Below are positions 15,274 through 16,601 of a stretch of DNA of 64,000 nt, one piece after another; position 1 is the first letter of the stretch; every line of letters starts with the position of its first letter. Below the pieces are notes generated by a model that was given only the letters and a program-made list of their open reading frames with translations, was not told the DNA's origin and did not search any database. This DNA is from Leptolyngbya sp. BL0902 (lineage in GTDB: Bacteria > Cyanobacteriota > Cyanobacteriia > Phormidesmidales > Phormidesmidaceae). The DNA lies in NCBI RefSeq assembly GCF_016403105.1, contig NZ_CP046155.1, forward strand, positions 3,439,906 through 3,503,905, given 5' to 3'. Made by a program: the position numbers and the translations under genes.

Positions 15274-15588
15274 ATGCAATCTTTCTCCGCTTGGCCCGTT
15301 CGCTGCTGCTTGGTCGGTGTTGCGGGTTTTACCCTAGGCGTAGCCCTCGTGGTTAGTGATTCTCCGTTGACGGCAGGCCAGTCCGCTGAGCCTCGCTCAT
15401 TTTTTCTAGAAGCCCAGGGCGAGGATCGGGGCAGTGGTCGCCTCCATCAGCCCGCCTTGATCCATCAGGCCGCCATCCGGGGCAGTGGCCGCATCAGTCC
15501 TACCCCCCCGACACCCGATGTTCAAGCCCAGACCACGGCCTACCGGGGCAGTGGTCGTATTGATCCCCACAGCCCCAACCGAGTCTAG
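15274..15588 (+). CDS. patX: PatX-like secreted peptide precursor with three RGSGR motifs
   Basis: This 104-residue protein has a hydrophobic N-terminal segment (about 8-29), read as a signal peptide or membrane anchor, and an otherwise low-complexity hydrophilic tail. The tail carries the pentapeptide RGSGR three times, at residues 52-56, 69-73 and 91-95, each followed by a hydrophobic residue (Leu, Ile, Ile). RGSGR is the active pentapeptide of PatS and is also found in HetN; it inhibits HetR in heterocyst-forming cyanobacteria. The PatX family, small exported RGSGR proteins associated with hetR across multicellular cyanobacteria, fits best. The hetR gene follows 74 nt downstream on the same strand. 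The precursor is presumably processed to release peptides; processing sites are not evident. Confidence 0.85.
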   Translation: MQSFSAWPVRCCLVGVAGFTLGVALVVSDSPLTAGQSAEPRSFFLEAQGEDRGSGRLHQPALIHQAAIRGSGRISPTPPTPDVQAQTTAYRGSGRIDPHSPNRV

Positions 15589-15662
15589 CCGCTATCCTAC
15601 CCAGCCCAGAACAGGCTACACTGCGTGTGGGTGCCTTCTTAAGATCTTGATTTTCCGTACCC

Positions 15663-16601
15663 ATGGCTGATTCTGATCCGCAATCAACCGTTACATTTCC
15701 CGTTACCTACGATGAAGAACTGATTCGTCAGCTCAGCCCCAGCGCCATCGATCAAATTCTGCTGTATTTGGCCTTCAGTGCCATGCGGACTGGGGGGCAC
15801 CGCCACGGGGCTTTTCTCGATGCGGCGGCCACGGCGGCCAAATGTGCCATCTACACCACCTACCTAGAGCAGGGCGAAAACCTGCGGATGACCGGGCATC
15901 TACACCACATCGAGCCGAAGCGGGTGAAGGCGATTGTGGAGGAAATTCGACAGGCGCTGGTGGAGGGCAAGCTGCTGAAGCTGCTGGGTTCCCAAGAGCC
16001 TCGCTACCTGATTCAGTTTCCCTATGTGTGGCTGCACCGCTACCCTTGGCAGGCCAAACAGTCGCGGGTTTTAGGCACCTCCCTCACCCCCGATGAAAAG
16101 GCTAGTCTGGTCAGCAAGCTTCCCCCCCATAGCCCCCCAGCACGCATCATCAACTCCTTTCAGTTCCTAGAGCTGATTGAAGCCCTGCACGAAAAATCCC
16201 AAGAAGACTTGCCCTCCAGCCATCGCGTCGATCTCAGTGAAGCCCTCGCCGAACACATTCGCCGCCGCCTGATTTACTCCGGCACCGTGATTCGCCTGGA
16301 TACCTATGGAGGAGCCTCCTACTATGCCCTAGCGCGAAGTTCCTATTCCCCGGCTGACTCGGAAGAACGCATGTACGCCATGATTGAGGATACGGCCCAG
16401 TATTTCCGCATGATGCGCGAATGGGCCAGCCATCGTTCGGGAACCATGCGGGTGCTAGAAGAACTAGACATTGCCGCTGAGGATGTGGATCGGGCCTTCA
16501 AGGATCTCGATGAAATGATTCGGGCCTGGGCCGATAAGTACCATCGTCCGGGCGGCGAACCCATCCTGCTCCACATGGCCGTGGGCCACCATGCTCCCTA
16601 G
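15663..16601 (+). CDS. hetR: HetR master regulator of multicellular differentiation
   Basis: HetR is a dimeric DNA-binding regulator, master switch of heterocyst development in Anabaena and also present in many non-heterocystous filamentous species. The 312-residue product aligns along its full length and is 13 residues longer at the N-terminus. [21 protein letters not shown] and the cysteine matching Cys48 (here Cys61) are present. Ser192 matches Ser179, in LSEALAEHI. The C-terminal hood domain is complete: Arg236 matches Arg223, and Glu266, Glu267 and Asp269 in LEELD match Glu253, Glu254 and Asp256, residues implicated in RGSGR recognition. It follows the patX-like gene and converges with ruvB. 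Confidence 0.96.

Follow-up and report, generated by a model that had tools for sequence, protein, structure and literature searches.

Three RGSGR motifs in the PatX-like protein encoded upstream of hetR in Leptolyngbya sp. BL0902, and tandem copies among its relatives

PatX was reportedly defined in the study by Elhai and Khudyakov (2018). In Nostoc, PatP cleaves exported PatX, and the hexapeptide PatX6 (HRGTGR) binds HetR (PMC12756182), as the hexapeptide PatS6 does (PMC4649674). The DIF1 motif (TCCGGA) drives Anabaena patX under the control of HetZ (PMC7377430). The closest described locus is that of Leptolyngbya sp. BL0902 itself, for which the text of PMC11298460 names patX (GFS31_32390) and hetR (GFS31_32400) and reports apparent co-transcription from a predicted DIF1 promoter. 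According to the same text, BL0902 has three hetR-like ORFs as well as hetZ-patU, and is without a nif cluster, patS and hetN. Deletion mutants of patX and of hetR were made there, and RNA-seq found 993 changed genes in ΔhetR, 428 in ΔpatX and 477 in the double mutant. In two gene groups on which PatX and HetR act in opposite ways, the double mutant resembled ΔpatX and not ΔhetR; the authors describe the effects of PatX as 'basically independent of HetR', and they term the role of hetR and patX in filaments without heterocysts a mystery.

The window analysed here, the whole stretch of 64,000 nucleotides (64 kb), contains this published pair; we know of no difference between the two and take them as the same locus. 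Since a patX-hetR pair with mutants and RNA-seq is already described in PMC11298460, the locus is known and not new, and what the present analysis adds is comparative: copy number, conservation, the upstream element, the gap between the genes and the pockets of the HetR paralogs. PMC11298460, as far as consulted, makes no mention of three motifs in PatX, and in the literature searched, leaving Elhai and Khudyakov (2018) aside, we found no mention of a multi-copy PatX.

The patX gene (presumably GFS31_32390; 15274..15588, plus strand) starts with ATG and encodes a probable exported precursor of 104 aa. A six-frame motif scan placed its three RGSGR units, all on the plus strand, at 15427..15441 (DRGSGR), 15478..15492 (IRGSGR, which is FRGSGR in most relatives) and 15544..15558 (YRGSGR). 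The intact hetR (presumably GFS31_32400; 15663..16601, plus strand; 312 aa) has its ATG 74 nt past the patX stop. The first-pass annotation had described a small protein with three RGSGR motifs 74 nt upstream of hetR on the same strand, and the open reading frames and the motif scan agree with it in full. Across the six frames of the window these three units are the only RGSGR occurrences; among near-motifs, RGTGR is found once and RGAGR twice, each time in a short frame of the minus strand. When the 104-aa PatX was shuffled 300,000 times, 329 shuffles contained one RG(S/T)GR and none contained two. The proposed export is based on the N-terminus, which is hydrophobic, with a Kyte-Doolittle value of 2.44 over 12 aa, and is so in 83 of 88 loci altogether, as judged by hydropathy only. 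A comparison of the locus with the plasmid collection gave no match.

With three RGSGR motifs in 104 aa, the protein has the RG(S/T)GR-bearing small size of PatX, and it accompanies hetR as PatX does in filamentous cyanobacteria. NCBIfam NF047413, a curated PatX model and not the literature definition, has a cutoff of 30 bits; the protein scores 11 (E 0.57), with residues 82-96 matched. PatS, by comparison, is a very short peptide that ends in RGSGR, and here residues continue past the last RGSGR. The assignment as a PatX-HetR pair is upheld, the pair being published for BL0902 as such (PMC11298460).

The motifs are far better conserved than their surroundings. In the 24 three-copy PatX proteins that were aligned (of 29), all 15 motif positions are invariant. 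Over the remaining 89 positions identity averages 20% with the window protein and 65% when the commonest residue is the reference, in an alignment that is loose in the leader. The codons of the motifs vary among relatives. Selection has kept the RGSGR motif in PatX, and RGSGR is not absent from close relatives, the outcome that would have counted against the earlier reading. The residue before the motif also follows position: D precedes unit 1 and F precedes unit 2 in 24 of 29 three-copy members each, with I before unit 2 in the window PatX only, and Y precedes unit 3 in 25 of 29. The side chain preceding RGSGR is reported to be immaterial for HetR (PMC4649674). The patX starts of relatives follow a rule (the first M at least 20 residues ahead of the first RG), which gives a wrong start in some cases, such as those in which a leader was not found.

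We examined 138 hetR loci, 111 of them unique by hetR DNA. At 89 of the 111, an ORF with RG(S/T)GR precedes hetR in the same orientation, no more than 2.5 kb away. The number of copies is one at 38 of these loci, two at 5, three at 29, four at 12, five at 3 and nine at 2. No such ORF was found upstream at the other 22, of which 3 have less than 1.3 kb of upstream DNA. Within the window's family, 62 other genomes were searched and 49 of them supplied loci, one with only 87 nt upstream; patX was present at all 48 scorable loci, in 2-9 copies at 44 and in one copy at 4, all four belonging to genus g10. For comparison outside the family, a class-wide draw of 195 genomes was used: hetR was present at E 1e-20 in 102, of which 22 belong to the window's family, and 40 genomes were hand-picked from the other 80. 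Here patX was found in 28 genomes, each time in single copy (multi-copy in 0/28), and in 12 there was none. Tandem RGSGR copies set the window's family apart. On the HetR tree, built without L051 (133 aa), 5 changes suffice to explain the 50 multi-copy rows, where shuffles take 36.7; since at least 3 are required by well-supported branches, a single origin of the multi-copy state is not established.

Several loci merit separate description. The largest array seen, nine RGSGR units (seven DRGSGR, two YRGSGR), is that of the PatX at L111 and L112 (genomes G020 and G015); each of the five genomes checked in this genus has one hetR gene. At L005, positions 1-386 at a contig end, upstream of hetR, carry almost perfect repeats of 15 aa (IGTDSDVLAFRGSGR), which points to recent duplication of units. 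A clade of seven hetR loci (L031, L033, L034, L035, L045, L050 and L144) has no RG(S/T)GR ORF upstream; in the six members scored for it, all but L144, DNA-contact residue K73 is replaced by R.

The distance between the two genes varies. Measured between the stop of patX and the point where the hetR match begins, it is 74 nt in the window and 106 nt in the relative placed closest to it on the tree. The gap is 170-640 nt at 81 of 89 loci, which makes the window unusual, and hetR starts no more than 120 nt from patX at only 4 of the 83 loci having an in-frame start. As the tight gap is not conserved, co-transcription of a close pair is no general rule; the suggestion of one likely transcript fits BL0902, where apparent co-transcription is reported (PMC11298460).

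A TCCTGA at 15213..15218 (plus strand), one base off the DIF1 motif TCCGGA, forms a -35-like element of the patX promoter, and 78 of 88 unique loci (45 multi-copy and 33 single-copy; the set excludes L005, which starts inside patX) have TCCTGA at -66 to -55 relative to the start of patX. In 200 resampled control sets the average was 0.27 loci and the maximum 2. This shared position ties the gene to canonical PatX despite the miss by the NCBIfam PatX model, and we take TCCTGA to be the probable DIF1 promoter predicted in the strain paper. A candidate, weak -10-like element, TGTAAC, lies at 15236..15241 (plus strand), 17 nt past TCCTGA; the hexamer at that distance is TGTAAC in 23 of the 78 loci, where it is commonest, and CGTAAC in 13, with a loose -10 match at 15-19 nt in 33 of 78 only. 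A longer upstream stretch, around AATCCGCAGATTTAC, TTTTCCTGAC and GTAACTAGGACTAGAAGCGCTAA, is largely kept across 27 close relatives, the window among them. A wider regulon sharing the pattern TTCCTGA-N18-GTAWC was considered and dropped, since the patX promoter itself is the only place in the genome where the pattern matches; the reversed control pattern likewise matched once. In the 300 nt before patX and in the patX-hetR gap, the window has no TCCGGA, no GGGN5CCC (HetR) and no GTAN8TAC (NtcA), and at other loci these motifs give scattered matches at no shared position. TCCGGA occurs 0 times in the 64-kb window against 18 expected, or 15.6 under a Markov expectation, an absence that is not specific since other palindromic hexamers are equally depleted. 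Over positions 1-64000, GGGCCC is seen 0 times against 39.5 under a Markov expectation and GGCGCC 0 times against 26.5. Despite this depletion of palindromic hexamers, BL0902 is reported to have no type II restriction enzymes (PMC11298460).

The hetR gene was claimed to be intact, and its product indeed has both Pfam domains, Peptidase_S48 and HetR_C, and passes the NCBIfam HetR equivalog cutoff narrowly (492.5 bits against 489). It keeps all six residues of the PatS6 pocket (R236, E266, E267, D269, D283 and D291, scored as R223, E253, E254, D256, D270 and D278 after PMC4649674) and all six DNA-contact residues (R62, H69, E71, K73, R74 and K76). Four pocket residues, R223, E253, D270 and D278, bind PatS6 experimentally (PMC4649674), and they are present in 54 of 54 scored HetR1 sequences. 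In this scoring 22 duplicates were removed, and L079 and L080 were left unscored as HetR1 and dropped from HetR3, which went from 7 to 5.

The genome holds three HetR genes, the two paralogs being 49% and 41% identical to the window HetR. In HetR2 (n=15), R223, E253, D270 and D278 are kept in 15/15 and D256 in 14/15, and E254 is replaced by V in 14 and by T in 1; the HetR2 of L095 is the sole HetR of its genome. In HetR3 (n=5), R223, E253 and D270 are kept in 5/5 and D278 in 4/5, and E254 and D256 are both altered in 5/5. Among the 22 family genomes in the 195-genome draw, 14 carry a second HetR that is full-length and of the 45-50% kind. Outside the family the draw yielded a 53% second copy (G209), a 51% sole copy (G196), a 42% copy (G086), partial copies (G177 and G079) and 60-65% second copies in several genomes. 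The genomes of L079 and L080 (G012 and G011) carry a second HetR 68-69% identical to that of the window, perhaps from a separate duplication. None of the 20 HetR2 and HetR3 loci has a linked patX-like gene. RGSGR occurs near paralogs only in a 43-aa minus-strand frame in L095 and in L099, where a low-complexity ORF of 316 aa with one RGSGR (4516-5463, minus strand) lies close to the HetR3 gene. At these 20 loci TCCTGA is never at its usual place. The idea of one RGSGR copy per HetR paralog was rejected, since single-HetR genomes carry 4-9 copies (five genomes of g7) or 1-2 (five of g10).

We consider it fairly probable that BL0902 PatX is an exported, cut tandem propeptide whose X-RGSGR peptides bind HetR-family proteins. 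By analogy with Nostoc, the leader would export the precursor and a periplasmic peptidase of the PatP type would cut it, and as many as three X-RGSGR hexapeptides could come from one precursor. Once taken back into cells, they would occupy the cleft of the hood domain in HetR-family proteins, which might thereby be released from DNA. In favour of this reading are, from the present analysis, the motifs and their strict conservation, the family arrays, the promoter element and the kept pocket residues of HetR, whose DNA-contact residues are kept as well; two points speak against it: the published independence from HetR in RNA-seq (PMC11298460) and the 11 bits of the NCBIfam PatX model against its cutoff of 30. 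Nor does the published RNA-seq show inhibition of HetR by a PatX peptide or support the notion of an inhibitor-regulator pair, the effects of patX in BL0902 being basically independent of hetR (PMC11298460).

That independence (PMC11298460) would be explained if PatX peptides acted chiefly on the two HetR paralogs and not on the neighbouring HetR, so that deletion of hetR1 would leave the effects of PatX in place. We rate such an account as rather unlikely, though the genome does have three HetR genes and the paralog pockets are mostly kept. Also in its favour, E254A in Anabaena HetR lowers affinity without abolishing it, from a Kd of 12 to 91 nM (PMC4649674). Against it, HetR3 is altered at both residues that hold the peptide N-terminus, and D256A alone raises the Anabaena Kd to 427 nM (PMC4649674). 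The copy number of PatX is also unrelated to that of HetR, and the 20 paralog loci, besides being without a linked patX-like gene, have TCCTGA or TCCGGA within 400 nt upstream in 2 cases only (-269 and -289). A broader version, in which a PatX tandem array of 1-9 units, with X set by position, would serve several HetRs and the BL0902 paralogs would carry most of the response, strikes us as improbable. The RNA-seq independence (PMC11298460) would also suit a PatX that works extracellularly or at the envelope, no HetR being involved and the linkage to hetR an ancestral leftover. This is unlikely, given that RGSGR is the sole strictly conserved part of PatX and matches the HetR pocket, in which the four main residues never vary among the HetR1 sequences scored, and that patX precedes hetR on the same strand at so many unique loci. 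Finally, a chance frame or repeat artefact, which the score below the NCBIfam cutoff might suggest, is refuted by invariant motifs with varying codons in diverged relatives, by the conserved upstream element and by the 428 genes whose expression changes on patX deletion (PMC11298460).

A role other than heterocyst patterning, as the first-pass annotation proposed, is reasonable: the best nifH model match in the genome reaches 222.5 bits, short of the cutoff of 394.35, the HetP family has no match in it, and a nif cluster, patS and hetN are all reported as missing (PMC11298460). Patterned filament breakage via necridia has been offered as a conjecture for such a role (PMC7761841). The observation on the paralogs makes the puzzling independence from HetR testable in a tractable strain.

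To conclude, BL0902 PatX, which is small and RG(S/T)GR-containing and has a putative leader, resembles the PatX of Nostoc/Anabaena PCC 7120, a small leader-bearing protein with RG(S/T)GR that is the source of a HetR-inhibiting hexapeptide (PMC7761841, PMC12756182). The Nostoc protein, however, has 56 aa with HRGTGR (PMC12756182), whereas BL0902 PatX has 104 aa with three RGSGR, is encoded adjacent to hetR and comes from a strain reported to be non-heterocystous. RGSGR is also the active peptide of PatS and HetN in Anabaena PCC 7120, PatS being only 17 aa long. HetN is a larger protein, a reductase, with RGSGR in its interior. The precursor of the yeast alpha-factor is exported and holds several head-to-tail copies of one signalling peptide; its likeness to BL0902 PatX, whose release of multiple peptides is putative, is one of analogy only and not of homology.
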